Below, piece after piece: positions 30,843 through 57,611 of a DNA stretch of 64,000 nucleotides. Where the stretch lies: NCBI GenBank assembly GCA_030524425.1, contig JAUNGN010000002.1, positions 1-64,000 of the forward strand, read 5' to 3'. The DNA comes from Clostridia bacterium (GTDB taxonomy: Bacteria; Bacillota; Clostridia; Lachnospirales; CAG-274). The notes beneath the pieces were generated by a model. It was given only the letters and a program-made list of their open reading frames with translations, searched no databases and was not told where the DNA came from. The translations under genes and the position numbers were made by a program. Positions within the stretch are counted from its first letter, which is position 1. Every line of letters starts with the position of its first letter.

Positions 30843-30954
30843 AATTAAAGGGCTGTAAATAATAGATAATATTACAGAAAGTTAAAATTTACTGCGCTTA
30901 AGGGAGTCAAGAAGGTAATCTTTTAGTTCAGCTGTTAAAAATATAAAATTACTT

Positions 30955-31567
30955 GCCTCCCTTTTAAGGGAGGTGTCTGCGGAGCAGACGGAGGGTTTTA
31001 AGGTTTTCGGGTTTTAGGATTTAAGGTTTTTCAGTTTTTAATATTATATATATTTAGAATAAAAAACCCTCAGTCAGCCTGTGGCTGACAGCTCCCTTAA
31101 AAAGGGAGCCAAGAAGGTAATCTTTTTAGTTCAGCTGTTAATAAAGTAAAATTTCCTGCCTCCCTTTTAAGGGAGGTGTCTGCGGAGCAGACGGAGGGTT
31201 TTAAGGTTTTCGGGTTTTAGGATTTAAGGTTTTTCAGTTTTTAATATTATATATATTTAGAATAAAAAACCCTCAGTCAGCCTGTGGCTGACAGCTCCCT
31301 TAAAAAGGGAGCCAAGAAGGTAATCTTTTTAGTTCAGCTGTTAATAAAGTAAAATTTCCTGCCTCCCTTTTAAGGGAGGTGTCTGCGGAACAGACGGAAG
31401 GTTTTAAGGTTTTCGTGTTTAGGGTTTTTAAGGTTTAAAGAGTTTAACATTATATATATATTTATATTTAGAATAAAAAACCCTCAGTCAGCCTGTGGCA
31501 GACAGCTCCCTTAAAAAGGGAGCCAAGAAGGTAATCTTTTTAGTTCAGCTGTTAATAAAGTAAAATT
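30955..31567 (+). repeat. Three-copy tandem array of a 203-base hairpin unit
   Basis: Units begin at 30955, 31158 and 31361, an exact 203-base period. Each unit has a left hairpin block with arms CCTCCCTT/AAGGGAGG and GTCTGC/GCAGAC, an AT-rich middle, and a right block with TCAGCC/GGCTGA and CTCCCTT/AAGGGAG followed by CAAGAAGG. Left and right blocks are imperfect inverted versions of each other. Copies 1 and 2 are nearly identical; copy 3 has changes that break both small stems and an altered middle, so it is decaying. Confidence 0.95.
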
Positions 31568-31661: not shown

Positions 31662-31670
31662 TGTTATAAT
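31662..31670 (+). promoter_or_regulatory. Extended -10 promoter of gyrB
   Basis: TGTTATAAT forms an extended -10 element 47 bases ahead of the gyrB start; the -35 region TTTCAT is poor. It gives gyrB its own transcription after the repeat array. Confidence 0.65.
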
Positions 31671-31716
31671 GGATTTAGAATTAAGGGTACTGTACCCCTA
31701 CGAAGGAGTTAAAAAA

Positions 31717-33627
31717 ATGTCACAGCAGGAATATAACGAAAATCAAATACAAATATTAGAGGGTCTTGAGGCTGTCAGAAAACGTCCCGGTATGTATATC
31801 GGTTCAACCTCAGCAAGAGGTCTGCATCATTGTGTTTATGAAATTGTAGATAATTCAGTTGATGAGGCTCTTGCAGGTTTTTGCAGTCATATAGAAATAA
31901 CGGTGCATGAGGATAACACTGTTTCAGTCAGAGATAACGGCAGAGGTATACCTGTAGGCATACATCCTCAAAAGGGCATTCCTGCTGTTGAGGTTGTATT
32001 TACAATACTTCATGCAGGAGGTAAATTCGGCGGAGGCGGTTATAAGGTATCAGGAGGTCTTCACGGTGTAGGTGCATCAGTTGTTAATGCTCTGAGTGAA
32101 TGGCTTGTGGTAGATATTTATCACGAGGGTCAGATTTATGAACAAAGATATGAAAGAGGAAATGTAATTCATCCTCTTAAAATTACAGGTACCTGCTCTC
32201 CGGAAGAAACAGGTACTTATATAAGATTTAAGCCTGATGCCGAAATTTTTGAGGAAACAATTTTTGATATTGAAACTTTAAGGCATCATTTGCAGGAAAC
32301 AGCCTTTCTTACAAAGGGACTTAAAATAACACTTACAGATTTAAGACCCGAAGAAAATCTTGAATTTGTTTATCATTATATGGGTGGTATTAAGGAATTT
32401 GTTGAAAATATTAATTCATCTAAAACACCTATGTACGAAGAAATATTCTATTGTGAAGGAATTTATAATAATATTGCGGTAGAAGTGGCATTTCAGCATA
32501 GTGACAGCTTTAATGAAGTTAATTATTCTTATGTAAATAATATAAATACCATTGACGGCGGTACACATATTCAGGGATTCAGAACTGCCCTTACAAAAAC
32601 CATTAATGATTATGGCAGGAAATTTGGACTTTTAAAGGCAAGTGACAAAAATCTTTCAGGTGAAGATATAAGAGAAGGTATGACATCTATTGTCAGTGTT
32701 AAGATTGAGGACCCCCAGTTTGAGGGACAGACAAAGGGTAAGCTTGGTACAAGCGATGCCTCTCCGGCAGTAGCAAATGTTCTTTCGGAAAATCTTACTT
32801 ATTTCCTTGAGGAAAATCCTAATGTAGGTAAATTAATACTTGAAAAGTCACTTCTTGCATCACGTGCAAGGGAAGCTGCCAAAAAGGCAAGAGAGCTTGT
32901 AAGACGTAAGGATGTTTTGGAAAGCGGTAAATTACCGGGTAAATTAACGGATTGCTCAGAAAAGGATCCCACAAACTGCGAAATTTATATTGTAGAGGGT
33001 AATTCTGCGGGAGGGTCTGCCGTTAAGGCAAGAGATGCAAAAACTCAGGCTATACTTCCTTTGAGAGGTAAAATTTTAAATGTAGAAAAGGCAAGACTTG
33101 ACAGAATTTTAGGAAATGAGGAAATAAAGTCCATGATTACTGCCTTTGGCACAGGTATTCATGAGGATTTTAATATTGAAAAGCTGAGATATCACAAAAT
33201 TGTACTTATGACAGATGCCGATGTTGACGGTGCTCATATTACAACTCTTCTTTTAACCTTTATATTCAGATTTATGCCTCAGCTTATTGAAAAGGGATAT
33301 GTATATCTTGCACAGCCCCCTCTTTATAAATTGGAAAAGGGTAAGAAAATAGTATATGCTTATTCTGATGAAGAAAGGGATAATGCTATTGCTGAAATGG
33401 GTGCAGAAGGCATGAAGCCTATTCAGAGATATAAGGGTCTTGGTGAAATGGATGCTTCTCAGCTTTGGGAAACTACCATGGATCCCGAAAAGCGTATTTT
33501 GATTAAAGTTACCATTGAGGATGCAAGACTTGCAGATGAAATATTTGATAAACTTATGGGTGACAATGTTGAGCCAAGACGTGAGTTTATTCAGCAGGAA
33601 GCAAAATATGCAACATTGGATGTATAA
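31717..33627 (+). CDS. gyrB: DNA gyrase subunit B
   Basis: The 636-residue ATPase subunit supplies energy for negative supercoiling. The GHKL domain has [13 protein letters not shown] near residue 44 and [13 protein letters not shown] near 75; the TOPRIM domain has [14 protein letters not shown] near 428 and [16 protein letters not shown] near 500. Length and ends are normal. AAGGAG precedes the ATG at 31717. Hairpin-repeat arrays of opposite orientation flank the gene on both sides, and gyrA is about 890 bases downstream instead of adjacent. Confidence 0.97.
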
Positions 33628-34140
33628 AATATAAAACCCAAAAACCCGAAAACCTTCCGTCTGCTCCGCAGACACCTCCCTTAAAAGGGAGGCAGGAAAA
33701 AAATTATTTTATTAACAGCTGAATTAAAAAGAATACCTTCTTGGCTCCCTTAAAGGGTATAGCAGGAAAATTTATTTTATTGAAAGCTGAATTAAAAGAA
33801 TGGCTTCTTGGCTCCCTTTTTAAGGGAGCTGTCAGCCATAGGCTGACTGAGGGTTTTAAATGCTGAAAAAAAAGGGTGAAAAAAACCCGAAAACCCAAGA
33901 AACCCAAAACCTTCCGTCTGCTCCGCAGACACCTCCCTTAAAAGGGAGGCAGGAAAAATTTATTTTATTAACAGCTGAATTAAAAAGAATACCTTCTTGG
34001 CTCCCTTGAAAGGTATGGCAGGAAAAATTTATTTTATTAACAGCTGAACTAAAAAGAATACCTTCTTGGCTCCCTTTTTAAGGGAGCTGTCAGCCATAGG
34101 CTGACTGAGGGTTTTAAAATTTTAATATAAAGGTGATTTA
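33628..34140. other. Repeat-filled gap between gyrB and the DUF559 gene
   Basis: Almost the whole stretch consists of two copies of the hairpin repeat (33652-34116), followed by the AAAGGTGA ribosome-binding site of the DUF559 gene. No terminator of ordinary form is seen after gyrB, although the repeats could act as one. Confidence 0.8.
33652..34116 (-). repeat. Two-copy hairpin-repeat array, inverted relative to the recF-gyrB array
   Basis: Copies begin with CCTTCCGTCTGCTCCGCAG at 33652 and 33909 and end after GGCTGACTGAGGGTTTT near 33857 and 34115. Each contains the two hairpin blocks of the recF-gyrB units in reverse orientation, plus an extra degenerate block (GGCTCCCTTAAAGGGTATAG at 33742 and a sibling at 34000) between them. 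Spacer bases differ from the upstream array while stem bases are kept. Confidence 0.9.
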
Positions 34141-34503
34141 ATGCTGAAATATAAAAGTGAAAATAAAAAATTTGCACGAAATTTGCGTAAAAATTCTACA
34201 CCTTGGGAAAGAAAGCTTTGGTATTTATTTTTAAAAGATTATAAAATAAGATTCAACAGACAAAAACCAATAGGTAATTATATAGTTGATTTTTATTGCA
34301 GCAAAGCAGGAATTATAATAGAGCTTGATGGTAGTCAGCATTATTCAGACCGTCAAATTATTTATGACAAAGAAAGAACAGATTATTTCAAATCCTTAAA
34401 CCTAAAAGTAATAAGAATAATAAATTCAGATATTGATTTTAAATTCAGAGAGGTTTGTAATTACATCGAAAATGAGATAAATAAAAGGATTGATAAAAAT
34501 TAG
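34141..34503 (+). CDS. DUF559 endonuclease-like protein
   Basis: The 120-residue protein matches the DUF559 group of the PD-(D/E)XK, Vsr-like nuclease fold. It opens with NLRKNSTPWERKLWYLF, and the probable catalytic residues are in IVDFYCSKAGIIIELDGSQH near residue 50-70. Its cellular role is not established. It begins directly after an array of hairpin repeats behind AAAGGTGA and ends 12 bases before gyrA, so it has been inserted into the normally contiguous gyrB-gyrA pair. The association suggests a selfish or repeat-processing unit, an inference. Confidence 0.8.
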   Translation: MLKYKSENKKFARNLRKNSTPWERKLWYLFLKDYKIRFNRQKPIGNYIVDFYCSKAGIIIELDGSQHYSDRQIIYDKERTDYFKSLNLKVIRIINSDIDFKFREVCNYIENEINKRIDKN

Positions 34504-34515
34504 AGGTAATATATT

Positions 34516-36996
34516 ATGGACGAAAATAATAAAACACAATATGATAAAATAGTCACTGCGGAAATTTCACAGACTATGAAATCTTCTTATATTGACTATG
34601 CAATGAGTGTTATTGTTGCCAGAGCCCTGCCCGATGTAAGAGATGGTTTAAAGCCTGTTCACAGAAGGATATTATATTCAATGAATGAAATGGGTCTTGC
34701 GCCTAATAAGGCTCATAAAAAATCAGCCAGAATTACAGGTGATACAATGGGTAAGTATCATCCTCACGGTGATGCGGCAATATATGATGCTCTTGTAAGA
34801 TTAGCTCAGGATTTCTCAATGAGGTATCCTCTTGTAGACGGACACGGAAATTTTGGTTCAATTGACGGATACCCCGCTGCGGCCGCCAGATATACGGAAG
34901 CAAGGCTTGCAAAAATAAGTCTTGAAATGCTTGCTGATATTGATAAGGATACGGTTGATTTTATACCTAATTATGACGGTGATTTTCTTGAGCCTACTGT
35001 TTTGCCGTCAAGAATACCAAATCTTCTTGTTAACGGTTCAAGCGGTATTGCAGTTGGTATGGCAACTAATATACCTCCTCATAATCTTTCGGAAATTATA
35101 GACGGACTTGTTAAAATAATAGATAACAGAATTTTAGAAAAAAGAGATACCGATATTGACGAGCTTTGCAGTATTATTAAGGGTCCCGATTTTCCAACAG
35201 GAGGCAATATACTTGGCAAGGCAGGTATTTTAAGTGCCTACAGAACAGGAAGAGGTAAGCTTAAATTAAGAGCACAGGCTGAAATTATAACAAAGCCTAA
35301 CGGCAGGGAAGAAATACTTATTACTGAAATTCCTTATCAGGTTAATAAGTCAAGAATGATTGAAGGAATTGCAGAGCTTGTTAAGGATAAGAGAATTGAA
35401 GGAATTTCAGGTATTCAGGACAGCACAAATGACAGAAACGGCATTCACATTTTAATTGAGGTTAAAAAGGATGCATCTGCCGAAATTGTGCTTAATAATC
35501 TTTATAAATATTCTCAGCTTCAGGAAAATTACAGCATTAATTTCCTTGCTATTGTTGACGGAATTCCTAAGGTTCTTAATATTAAGGAAATGCTTGAGCA
35601 TTATCTTAAATTCCAGGAAGAGGTTGTAACAAGAAGAACTAAGTTCGACCTTAAAAAGGCTCTTGAAAGAATGCATATTTTAGAAGGATTTATAAGAGCT
35701 CTTGATAATATAGATGAGGTTATTTCAATTTTAAGAGGCTCCCGTACTACTGCTGAGGCTAAGACAAGGCTTATTGAGCGTTTCGGCTTTACTGATATTC
35801 AGGTTAATGCCATATGCGAAATGAGATTCAGAAGTCTTGTAGGTATGGAAAGAGAAAAGCTTGAAAATGAATATGCAGAGCTTACCGGACTTACCGAGGA
35901 ATGGAAGGCTATTCTTGCAGATGAAAATAAGCTTTTTGAAGTTATTAAAAATGAAATGCTTGAAACCAAGAGAAAATATGGTGATGAAAGACGCACAAGG
36001 CTTGTTGACGATATGGGCGAAATTGATATGGAGGATATTATTTCCGATGATATGTCAGTAATAACAATGACACATCTTAATTATGTTAAGAGAATTCCTC
36101 TTGATACCTATAAATCTCAGCATAGAGGAGGTAAAGGTATTATAGGACTTCAGATGCGTGATGAGGATTGTGTTCAAAGGCTGTTTGTAAGCTCAAATCA
36201 CAGCTATATTTTATTCTTTACAAATAAGGGTAAGGTTTACAGAAAGAAAACATGGGAAATACCTGAAGCAGGCAGGAATGCAAAGGGTACACCTATTGTT
36301 AATCTTCTGGAGCTTGATAAGGATGAAAGTATTTCCGCTGTTATACCTGCTAAGAGCTTTAATGAAAATGAATATCTTGTTATGGTTACAAAGCAGGGTA
36401 TTATTAAGAAAACTTCTGCCGGATTTTATAATAATATAAGGCGAGGAGGACTTATTGCACTTAATTTAAAGGATAATGATGAGCTTATTTCAATATTTAT
36501 TACAACGGGCAATGAGGATGTATTTATTGCTACAAGAAATGGCATAAGTATAAGATTTAAGGATAGAGATGTGCGTCCTATGGGCAGAACTGCCACAGGT
36601 GTTAAGGCTATTAATCTTAGTGATGATGACTTTGTTATAGGCGCTGATGCTGTTTCAGAGGACAGCAAGGTACTTCTTGTTACGGATTATGGCTTTGGCA
36701 AGTGCACTGTTCCCGAAAATTACAGAATACAGTCAAGAGGCGGTAAGGGTCTTAAAACCTATAAAATAACCGAAAAGACAGGTGCCGTAAGAAGCCTTGC
36801 CATTGTTAAGGACAGTGAAGAGCTTATTATGGTAACAAGTGAAGGTGTTGTTATAAGAATTAAGGTTAAGGATATTTCAACAGTAGGAAGAATTGCACAG
36901 GGTGTTAAGCTTGTTCAGCTCAATGACGGTGTTACGGTTATAGGTATGGATAAGATTGACGAGGAATATGTAGATTCTGATGACAAGGAAGAATAA
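34516..36996 (+). CDS. gyrA: DNA gyrase subunit A
   Basis: The 826-residue subunit cuts and rejoins DNA. The catalytic tyrosine lies in [14 protein letters not shown] near residue 122, preceded by [20 protein letters not shown]; the resistance-associated positions in [15 protein letters not shown] read Asp-Ala-Ala as in sensitive-type enzymes. The C-terminal wrapping domain carries the GyrA box form QHRGGKGI near 536, with His in the second place instead of the commoner Arg. Length is normal. AGAGGTAA precedes the ATG, and the gene probably depends on transcription through the repeats and DUF559 gene. Confidence 0.96.
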
Positions 36997-55526: not shown

Positions 55527-55570
55527 CTTGGCGCCCCTATAGGGGAGCTGTCACGAAGTGACTGAGGGGT
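55527..55570 (+). repeat. Solo hairpin element of the gyrB-repeat family
   Basis: CTTGG is followed by a CCCCTATAGGGG dyad, AGCT, GTCAC/GTGAC with loop GAA, and TGAGGGG. The order is the same as the B block of the gyrB arrays (CTTGGCTCCC ... TGAGGG) but both stem sequences are changed in a paired manner. Confidence 0.7.
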
Positions 55571-55622
55571 AATAGCAAATGCCTGCATTTGTGTATTAAG
55601 CAAGATAAATTGTCCGTAAAAA

Positions 55623-55653
55623 AAACAGCATAGGGGACAGTCCCCTATGCTGT
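55623..55653. repeat. REP-like palindrome, copy 3
   Basis: Perfect arms AACAGCATAGGGGA/TCCCCTATGCTGTT, loop CAG. The TAG stop codon of the RAYT gene lies inside it. Confidence 0.95.
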
Positions 55654-56391
55654 TATTGCTTTCTCTAAAGTATACCTTTTAATTTTCGTAAGTTTTATTA
55701 TTTGATTTTTTGATACTCCCGACTTTAAACATTTTTTTATAACCTTACACTTCAAATTATCAGGTAATTTATTCAAATCAAATAAATTTGTGGAATTCAA
55801 ATTTTTAAGTATAATTTTAGCAGCCTCTTCATCTGTAACCCTTACAATTCTTTCGGATATATCTAAACATTTGTCCTCATTTACTTCGGAATTAAATTCA
55901 ATAAACTGTTTTTTGCTCATCATTCCCATTATTAAGTCTTTATCAACTAAATCGCTGTTATAAATATAATGTTTAAAACTGGACCACTTATAGTCATCCA
56001 CCTTCTCCGCCATATATGCCTTAACGGGATTCTGATGAATATATCTGATTGCAGTAAGTAAATACCGGTCATCCTCAACAGGCTCACTTAAAAATCTGTC
56101 CTGAAAAAGATGTCCTACTCTTCCATATTTGGTGTTAAACCATTGGGCATAATTTCCTCCTAAACGCCCCATAGCTTCACTTATGTTTTCAACCCTTATA
56201 AGCAGGTGAATATGATTTGTCATAAGACAGTAGGCGTATATTTTCATATCAAAGGATTTTTTACAATCTGAAAGAATCCACAAAAACTTTTTATAGTCAT
56301 AATCCTCAATAAAAATATTCTGCTGACCTACTCCCCGCCATATAACATGATAAATATTTGTGCTGCTTTTAATCCTATTGTGTCTAGCCAT
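55645..56391 (-). CDS. REP-associated tyrosine transposase-like protein (Y1_Tnp/RAYT)
   Basis: The 248-residue protein has the Y1 transposase fold. HUH histidines lie in AYCLMTNHIHLLIRVEN near residue 58, and the catalytic tyrosine is probably in TAIRYIHQNPVKAYM near 115, preceded by GHLFQDRFLSEPVEDDRY. A C-terminal helix-turn-helix (KSGVSKNQIIKLTKIKRYTL) may recognise the palindrome. The start at 56391 follows AAGGTGG; a longer frame runs into the palindrome and is rejected. The stop codon lies inside a flanking palindrome. RAYTs move or maintain REP sequences; activity here is inferred. Confidence 0.9.
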   Translation of the reverse strand: MARHNRIKSSTNIYHVIWRGVGQQNIFIEDYDYKKFLWILSDCKKSFDMKIYAYCLMTNHIHLLIRVENISEAMGRLGGNYAQWFNTKYGRVGHLFQDRFLSEPVEDDRYLLTAIRYIHQNPVKAYMAEKVDDYKWSSFKHYIYNSDLVDKDLIMGMMSKKQFIEFNSEVNEDKCLDISERIVRVTDEEAAKIILKNLNSTNLFDLNKLPDNLKCKVIKKCLKSGVSKNQIIKLTKIKRYTLEKAITA

Positions 56392-56408
56392 ATTATAACC
56401 ACCTTTTC

Positions 56409-56431
56409 GACATAGGGGACAGTCCCCATTG
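56409..56431. repeat. REP-like palindrome, copy 4 (degenerate)
   Basis: A CATAGGGGACAGTCCCCATT core with incomplete outer arms lies just upstream of the RAYT start. Confidence 0.75.
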
Positions 56432-56443
56432 TTGCTCAAAAAA

Positions 56444-56474
56444 AACAGCATAGGGGACTGTCCCCTATGCTGTT
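56444..56474. repeat. REP-like palindrome, copy 5, also terminator of serA
   Basis: Perfect arms with loop CTG. It directly follows the minus-strand serA gene and has T runs on the correct side, so it probably serves as that gene's terminator. Confidence 0.9.
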
Positions 56475-56477
56475 TTT

Positions 56478-57611
56478 TTATTTTATAACTCTTATACCAA
56501 GAACACCGTCAACGGCCTCAACCTTAGCCGTATCAGCACTCTTAACATCAGCTATTGTATAACCATAGTTACCTCTTGTCTTAGCATTAAACTGGCAGGC
56601 ACCGCTTATAGCATTCTTAACAGCGTCCATAGCATCAGCCTTTGAAAGAACACAAATTCTTTCACAGCCTGCAATCATAGGAGCAGAAACAGCAGGATAA
56701 TTAACAGAATTAATAATATTACCCTTTTCAAGGTATTCCATCATTTCCTCAGCAGCCATAGCAGCACAGTTATCCTCAGCTTCAGGAGTAGATGCACCCA
56801 AATGAGGAAGAGTAATAATGCCTTCAACTCCCACAGTTTTTTCATTAGGGAAGTCTGTTGCATAGTAGCTTACCTTACCGCTTTCAAGGCCTGCCTTAAC
56901 CGCATCGGCATCAACAAGCTCATTTCTTGCAAAGTTAAGGATTCTTACGCCGTCCTTACACTTAGCAAGGCTTTCAGCATTAATCATATTGGTAGTTTCA
57001 TTAGTTGCAGGAACATGAACTGTAATATAATCAGCTTCAGCATAAATATCATCAAGATTAGGAGTAAATTTAACACTGCTGTCAAGGGCAAGTGCATTCT
57101 TAATTGAGAAATAAGGGTCATAACCTATAACCTTCATGCCAAGAGCGGCAGCAGCGTTGGCAACAAGCACACCAATTGCGCCAAGACCAACTACACCTAA
57201 TGTCTTTCCCGTAATTTCAGGACCTGCAAAGTCAGCCTTGCCCTTTTCAACCTTAGCGGCAATGCCTTCTTCACCTGCAAGGCTCTGTGCCCACTTGTAA
57301 GCACCTGTAATATTTCTGCTTGTTAATAAAAGTCCTGTCAAAACAAGCTCCTTAACTGCATTGGCATTAGCTCCCGGAGTATTGAAAACAACAATACCCT
57401 TATCGGCACACTTGTCTAAAGGAATGTTGTTTACACCTGCACCGCATCTTGCAACAGCCTTTAAGCTGTCAGGAAGCTCCATATCGTGCATCTTAAAGCT
57501 TCTTAATAAAATAGCATCAGGATTAGCCATTTCATCGGATATATTGTAGTTATCGGTAAGCTTTGCAAGACCTGCTTTAGAAATCTTATTTAAAGTTAAT
57601 ACATTATACAT
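56478..57611 (-). CDS. serA: D-3-phosphoglycerate dehydrogenase
   Basis: The 377-residue enzyme starts serine synthesis by oxidising 3-phosphoglycerate. The NAD-binding Rossmann motif is GVVGLGAIGVLVANAAAALG near residue 140, catalytic-type arginine and glutamate lie in ILNFARNELVDADAV near 228 and LPHLGASTPEAEDN near 268. A short ACT-like tail (TIADVKSADTAKVEAVDGVL) ends the protein, more compact than long SerA forms. AAAGGTGATAATAAA precedes the ATG at 57611; an upstream in-frame ATG at 57629 overlaps that region. It follows serC. Confidence 0.9.
   Translation of the reverse strand: MYNVLTLNKISKAGLAKLTDNYNISDEMANPDAILLRSFKMHDMELPDSLKAVARCGAGVNNIPLDKCADKGIVVFNTPGANANAVKELVLTGLLLTSRNITGAYKWAQSLAGEEGIAAKVEKGKADFAGPEITGKTLGVVGLGAIGVLVANAAAALGMKVIGYDPYFSIKNALALDSSVKFTPNLDDIYAEADYITVHVPATNETTNMINAESLAKCKDGVRILNFARNELVDADAVKAGLESGKVSYYATDFPNEKTVGVEGIITLPHLGASTPEAEDNCAAMAAEEMMEYLEKGNIINSVNYPAVSAPMIAGCERICVLSKADAMDAVKNAISGACQFNAKTRGNYGYTIADVKSADTAKVEAVDGVLGIRVIK

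Follow-up and report, generated by a model that had tools for sequence, protein, structure and literature searches.

How has a small nuclease gene, preceded by palindromic repeats, come to stand between gyrB and gyrA in a Clostridia bacterium (assembly GCA_030524425.1, contig JAUNGN010000002.1), and what connects the gene with the repeats? The stretch analysed – referred to as the window – comprises the first 64,000 nt of that contig; the gene belongs to the family DUF559 and the repeats resemble repetitive extragenic palindromic (REP) sequences. A first-pass annotation had suggested that nuclease and hairpins may make up a single unit, selfish or repeat-spreading, that is comparable to but distinct from the pairing of REPs with REP-associated tyrosine transposases (RAYTs). 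The discovery of gene-plus-hairpin units in unrelated flanking DNA supports that suggestion: the insert is probably one case of a widespread selfish pairing in which a DUF559 nuclease is matched to REP-like double hairpins, and the best reading is an arrangement like that of RAYTs and REPINs (REP doublets forming hairpins) built on an unrelated nuclease.

The insertion and its flanks are organized as follows.

31669–33627, plus strand: gyrB, left flank of the insertion.
33628–34502, plus strand: whole insertion at the gyrB–gyrA junction, with two REPIN-like pairs ahead of the DUF559 gene, 875 nt in all (extent based on the empty site of the related genome G005).
34141–34503, plus strand: DUF559 (PF04480) Vsr/EDxHD-like nuclease gene, 120 aa, intact open reading frame (ORF).
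34516–36996, plus strand: gyrA, right flank of the insertion.

From the end of gyrB (33627) to the start of gyrA (34516) the window carries 888 nt, compared to 12–13 nt in G005, G011, G019 and G026; in most of the relatives read at this junction the gap is 6–30 nt, and a few have longer, unrelated gaps. G005 – a member of the same genus with a GyrB segment 95% identical to that of the window – has the empty site GATGTATAA followed directly by GAGGTAATATATTATG, that is, TAA joined to GAGGTAATATATTATG, and both halves of this site are recovered in the window, 875 nt (33628–34502) apart. The segment is a clean insertion relative to the empty site, as the first-pass annotation had proposed, and the empty sites it had asked for exist in relatives. 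The gene begins approximately 22 nt past the last repeat and stops 12 nt short of gyrA, again as described at the outset; the final G of its TAG stop codon is taken from the first G of the former gyrA leader. The junctions read TAA and TTA, so that any target-site duplication would span no more than 3 nt, one of them mismatched.

The repeats had been described as two hairpin-repeat units. That they separate gyrB from gyrA is correct, but the units are in fact two inverted pairs of double hairpins (33645–33695 with 33809–33861; 33902–33952 with 34067–34119), the parts of which are listed here.

33645–33695, minus strand: double-hairpin REP unit A1, with a CCTCCC hairpin, a GTCTGC hairpin and a GGAAGG tag.
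33699–33797, plus strand: spacer of pair 1, direct repeats of about 68 nt with a degenerate half hairpin (families D1/D2).
33809–33861, plus strand: double-hairpin REP unit B1, inverted partner of A1, with a GCTCCC hairpin, a GTCAGCC hairpin and a TGAGGGTTTT tag.
33902–33952, minus strand: double-hairpin REP unit A2.
33955–34054, plus strand: spacer of pair 2, 69-nt direct repeats as in the spacer of pair 1.
34067–34119, plus strand: double-hairpin REP unit B2, tag towards the DUF559 start codon.

Each unit reads CTCCCTT..AAGGGAG, then GTC(T/A)GC..GC(A/T)GAC, then a GGA(G/A)GG or TGAGGG tag. Folded as single-stranded DNA, a single unit forms two adjacent stems (z about -4.7 to -5.6 against shuffled sequences), while a whole inverted pair forms one larger structure (z -6.6) that none of 200 shuffles equalled. 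The repeats thus have the general traits of REPs and REPINs: they are short palindromes, intergenic, multi-copy and arranged as inverted pairs. A search of Rfam returned tRNAs only, so the hairpins correspond to no known RNA family. A second array, overlooked by the first-pass annotation, occupies the recF–gyrB gap (30953–31525) and contains six units in three inverted pairs; the corresponding gap of G005 is 111 nt long and array-free.

30953–31003, plus strand: second array, REP unit A.
31059–31111, minus strand: second array, REP unit B.
31156–31206, plus strand: second array, REP unit A.
31262–31314, minus strand: second array, REP unit B.
31359–31409, plus strand: second array, REP unit A.
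31473–31525, minus strand: second array, REP unit B.

The protein matches Pfam PF04480 with E=1e-27 (96 bits against a cut-off of 20.6) over profile positions 3–108 of 109, and its only Pfam matches are DUF559 and MTES_1575. Residues E23, D50, E61, H67, D76 and R79 are invariant across 18 homologues, that of the window included. The fold predicted by AlphaFold (mean predicted local distance difference test, pLDDT, 90) was compared to solved structures: the VIA Z scores are 16.4 for Neisseria 3hrl, 13.7 for I-Bth0305I (3r3p) and 11.2 for Vsr (1cw0), and the predicted fold is thus the Vsr-like nuclease fold previously ascribed to the family. Among relatives, the ratio of nonsynonymous to synonymous substitution rates (dN/dS) lies at 0.035–0.10 in most of 18 scored DUF559 pairs, with one pair at 0.2; these values indicate purifying selection and hence a maintained protein. 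As to other identities, the matches in PADLOC, NCBIfam and PHROGs, to nucleases of defence systems or homing, were all weak and partial.

The association of gene and hairpins extends beyond this locus. A scan of contigs recovered 79 DUF559 loci, mostly from Clostridia, with some from Chloroflexota, one from a Planctomycetia and one from Anaerovibrio. Of 76 DUF559 genes, 63 have a REP-type hairpin no more than 100 bp from the ORF, compared to 43 of 503 other ORFs on the same contigs (p=3e-42), and hairpins flank both sides of 35 of the 76 DUF559 genes vs. 6 of the 503 controls. DUF559 genes with no repeats nearby, which would have spoken against a link, are therefore a minority, and many of those scored as negative carry hairpins with a mismatch or a longer loop. 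Loci from a plasmid collection (Azospirillum, Sinorhizobium, Sphingobium, Qipengyuania, Deinococcus, Picosynechococcus and others), taken together with 30 Chloroflexota loci, have a hairpin density of 5.5/kb within 150 bp of DUF559 vs. 0.66/kb beyond 500 bp: the pairing is present also in Chloroflexota, Alphaproteobacteria and Deinococcota. The hairpins are mostly missing from long or fused homologues of DUF559 in viral contigs and relatives. Within relatives, a REP-type hairpin is found within 100 bp of 10 of 21 DUF559 genes, of one of 15 genes for Y1 transposases (as part of that gene's own palindrome) and of none of the GIY-YIG genes, a control family with few usable small ORFs (n=6).

Several of these loci have features of their own. 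In Sphingomonas (L267) the DUF559 gene lies inside an operon between transhydrogenase (pnt) genes, and in Deinococcus (L261) between paaD and paaZ of a phenylacetate-degradation operon; both, like the gene between gyrB and gyrA, separate subunits of one enzyme or pathway. At L019 and L129, tandem arrays of short partial-repeat units (e.g. ACCGGAGGGGTCACGT) take the place of hairpins directly upstream of the DUF559 ORF.

The same association is evident on the scale of genomes. Exact pattern and covariance-model searches covered the 2.62-Mb genome to which the window belongs. It contains a single DUF559 gene, and all 10 strong copies found by the exact pattern lie in the two arrays, at most 3.2 kb from that gene; the covariance model added 8 weaker, sister-type copies dispersed on other contigs inside composites of about 300 bp. 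These eight composites of about 300 nt (L071–L078, contigs 11, 22, 25, 43, 60 and 68 of the window genome, G000) each hold a sister-type hairpin pair within longer conserved sequence, part of which was also found hairpin-free (L235); the composite may be a separate non-autonomous element. G005 has 51 covariance-model matches. Full-length DUF559 is present in 16 of 116 related genomes, and model matches occur in 14 of these 16 vs. 11 of the 100 others. The excess of CTCCC..GGGAG hairpins (the count above that of a reversed-pattern control) has a median of 47 in the 16 genomes with DUF559 and of 0 in the 100 without (p=1.5e-8), and within the family of 57.5 and 3, respectively (p=9e-6), the P values being indicative since DUF559-bearing genomes are related and phylogenetically non-independent. 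The repeats are therefore not equally common in genomes that lack DUF559; equal abundance there was the outcome that the first-pass annotation had named as fatal to its proposal. The looser pattern CTYCC..GGRAG, applied to 24 other genomes, proved too permissive: it gave a clear excess in G118, G119, G120, G129 and G139, and none in GC-rich genomes.

A further prediction concerns specificity. If gene and repeat are a cognate pair, then hairpin type should track the protein; an accumulation by chance in gaps rich in repeats would give no such expectation. Five hairpin classes, mapped onto a protein tree with 74 DUF559 members, require 19 changes compared to 41 for shuffled labels, and none of 200 shuffles was as low, on a tree that has few strongly supported branches and to whose signal near-copies add. 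Members from Dehalococcoidia, Anaerolineaceae and Oscillospiraceae with CTTCCCC hairpins group together, and on one contig (L108) two DUF559 genes approximately 2 kb apart carry different hairpins, each fitting its own clade, as the cognate relationship predicts. At the level of sequence, these data show hairpin types to be gene-specific.

An all-against-all comparison of loci gave evidence for movement, in the form of short, highly identical blocks within DNA that is otherwise unrelated. Near-identical units of gene plus hairpins, about 0.5–0.66 kb long, were found in unrelated flanks, with ends near the outer hairpin edges. Two loci of one assembly (L135 and L136) are 97% identical over 659 bp between unrelated flanks; L130, L141 and L146 show 89–94% identity over about 580–627 bp, and L116 and L134 are more distant. 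In loci of the L135/L130 type the block holds the ORF, a promoter-like stretch that is conserved, and a pair of inverted hairpins that overlaps the end of the ORF; a different clade has a double hairpin on either side of its ORF, bracketing it. Among 12 loci of the bracketed clade, identity is 0.8–1.0 inside and drops to about 0.25, as expected at random, within a few bases beyond the hairpins, in an alignment anchored on the hairpin motif, where the first ~7 inside bases match by construction. The flanks of these 12 related copies are themselves unrelated: no single conserved insertion site was seen. In one syntenic genome pair, a 299-nt hairpin composite (L246) with outward tags is present in one genome only, with no clear target-site duplication. 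A transposable element is expected to recur as one unit between non-homologous flanks, to end sharply and to be matched by empty sites in relatives. All of this was seen, and these comparisons show – as judged from sequence – that gene and hairpins are co-mobile.

According to the preferred reading, a selfish pairing of nuclease and hairpins, the free-standing DUF559 nuclease (Vsr/EDxHD fold) would travel with its matched double hairpins, and gene-less inverted pairs would be non-autonomous REPIN- or MITE-like derivatives (MITEs: miniature inverted-repeat transposable elements). The nuclease would recognize the hairpin cognate to it, either as a cruciform or folded from single-stranded DNA, and would nick or cut it at its end or close by; host repair or replication would then place a copy of the REP pair, alone or along with the gene, at a new intergenic site. 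We infer, in short, that the DUF559 nuclease cuts and spreads the hairpins. In its broadest form, which we advance tentatively and regard as nearly an even call, the proposal is that undescribed, multi-phylum miniature mobile elements have free-standing DUF559 proteins as their enzymes, with double-hairpin ends and one gene only, for a PD-(D/E)XK-like Vsr/EDxHD nuclease, and that these elements, by hairpin or cruciform cutting independent of HUH, DDE and serine or tyrosine transposases, are the source of many bacterial CTCCC..GGGAG palindromes. Several observations weigh against the selfish pairing. The window gene is not bracketed by hairpins on its 3' side, and its junctions show no clear target-site duplication. 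No extra DNA-binding domain is present in the 120-aa protein, and we know of no strand-transfer activity for a DUF559 protein. A few DUF559 genes are bare of hairpins (L016, L112, L274, L298 and L268), and six genomes (G022, G025, G029, G031, G039 and G047) have a clear hairpin excess and no full-length DUF559 was found in them; their hairpins are possibly orphans after gene loss, or the assemblies incomplete.

The main rival to hairpin cutting is a homing-type process in which unoccupied target sites, allelic or ectopic, are cut by the nuclease, which then spreads by gene conversion, the hairpins doing no more than protecting the occupied site or supplying homology for recombination. I-Bth0305I, an EDxHD homing endonuclease, is among the closest solved structures after 3hrl, and the insertions within operons (gyrB–gyrA, Deinococcus paaD–paaZ, Sphingomonas pnt genes) spare both neighbors; we nevertheless consider homing unlikely, given that gene-plus-hairpin units occur in many unrelated flanks with no one conserved homing site, and that I-Bth0305I reads its ~60-bp site with extra DNA-binding domains (PMC3943268) absent from the window protein. 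Also to be weighed against the selfish pairing is a non-mobile, Vsr-like host repair nuclease, near which hairpins merely cluster or whose transcript they regulate: VsrA of Caulobacter, a DUF559 protein, has been proposed to act in very-short-patch repair (PMC12907096), the E. coli DUF559 gene (L268) has no hairpins nearby, and hairpins at ORF ends could serve as attenuators or terminators. Sharp element edges in non-homologous flanks, patchy distribution, clean insertion and gene-specific hairpins make this account distinctly improbable: co-mobility rules it out for the bracketed clades, although it could hold for vertically inherited members. Those of them that are also hairpin-free, YcjD of E. 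coli being one and VsrA of Caulobacter perhaps another, may have a pure repair role.

There is, finally, a candidate tyrosine transposase in the window itself.

55645–56451, minus strand: gene for a RAYT-like Y1 tyrosine transposase, whose match to NF047646 (E=8e-18) falls short of that model's cut-off.

Such an enzyme could spread the hairpins in trans, with DUF559 as a passenger. This we regard as highly improbable: the Y1 gene has a long palindrome of its own, of a different kind, on either side (GGGGACAGTCCCC; AACAGCATAGGGGACAGTCCCCTATGCTGTT; region 55624–56479), Y1 loci of relatives are, that gene's own palindrome aside, free of CTCCC hairpins (the 1 of 15 vs. 10 of 21 for DUF559 given above), and no Y1 transposase was detected, draft completeness permitting, in G005, G006, G013 or G015, all of which have DUF559 and a hairpin excess, so that a RAYT is not needed. 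The Y1 gene is a second hairpin-associated nuclease of the window, and with its palindromes it resembles the terminal inverted repeat (TIR)-type elements of PMC3733652; it adjoins a degenerate half of a dispersed composite repeat (GGCGCCCCTATAGGGGAGCTGTCACGAAGTGACTGAGGGGT..GCAAATGC) at 55530–55590.

The selfish pairing of DUF559 and double hairpins shares much with known systems. As with RAYTs and REPINs (REPtrons; TnpA_REP), one small nuclease gene stands near inverted pairs of tagged palindromes, gene-less pairs are dispersed, gene copies are mostly one or few, and repeats are gene-specific; there, however, the enzymes are HUH/Y1 tyrosine enzymes and the repeats single hairpins tagged GTAG, as opposed to a Vsr/EDxHD-fold metal nuclease and double hairpins with GAGGG-like tags. 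DUF559 was rejected as a RAYT/TnpA_REP protein (no Y1 HUH domain by Pfam; predicted Vsr/EDxHD fold), as were the window repeats as RAYT-type REPs (tags GGA(G/A)GG / TGAGGG rather than GTAG): with both Y1/HUH enzyme and GTAG tag missing, the pairing is not filed as RAYT/REPIN (PMC3116915, PMC2817692, PMC8266576). A survey of tagged REPs describes a CGTC class without a dedicated transposase (Di Nocera 2013, PMC3733652), common in Alphaproteobacteria, palindromic and mostly in head-to-head pairs. Unit A happens to start CCGTC, but the window repeats are CTCCC-type double hairpins, and their assignment to that class (8–9 bp stem, 4–5 nt loop, CCA tail) was rejected since A units have two hairpins and no CCA tail. 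Nor is DUF559 supported as the missing enzyme of classical CGTC REPs, as their core, taken as ATTGCGAG, was not enriched near DUF559. EDxHD homing endonucleases such as I-Bth0305I have the catalytic fold and conserved residues in common with DUF559 (Z 13.7), but the present unit has no intron or intein, no fixed homing site and no extra DNA-binding domains. Vsr and VsrA share the fold (Vsr Z 11.2; VsrA is itself a DUF559 protein), but a role in mismatch repair is proposed for them, and they are not known to be mobile or associated with hairpins. MITEs and miniature insertion sequences likewise have inverted terminal structures, gene-less derivatives and clean empty sites; the present unit differs in having no DDE, HUH or serine transposase, a length of ~0.5 kb with the nuclease as sole gene, and no clear target-site duplication.

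No description of a DUF559–repeat link was found in the literature searched, to which bioRxiv preprints and subscription journals did not belong; as far as that literature shows, the pairing of gene and hairpin is real, general and undescribed. Many bacterial genomes are full of palindromic repeats between their genes; to our knowledge, the GTAG class alone among these repeats has a known associated enzyme. If the selfish pairing is true, a nuclease family tied to a further large repeat class across phyla would explain the origin of those repeats, and an unannotated family, DUF559, would become a testable system of mobile elements or domesticated transposases. A DUF559 gene beside an operon gene would then be read as an insertion and not as a functional partner, and the arrangement of RAYTs and REPINs would have evolved a second time, independently.
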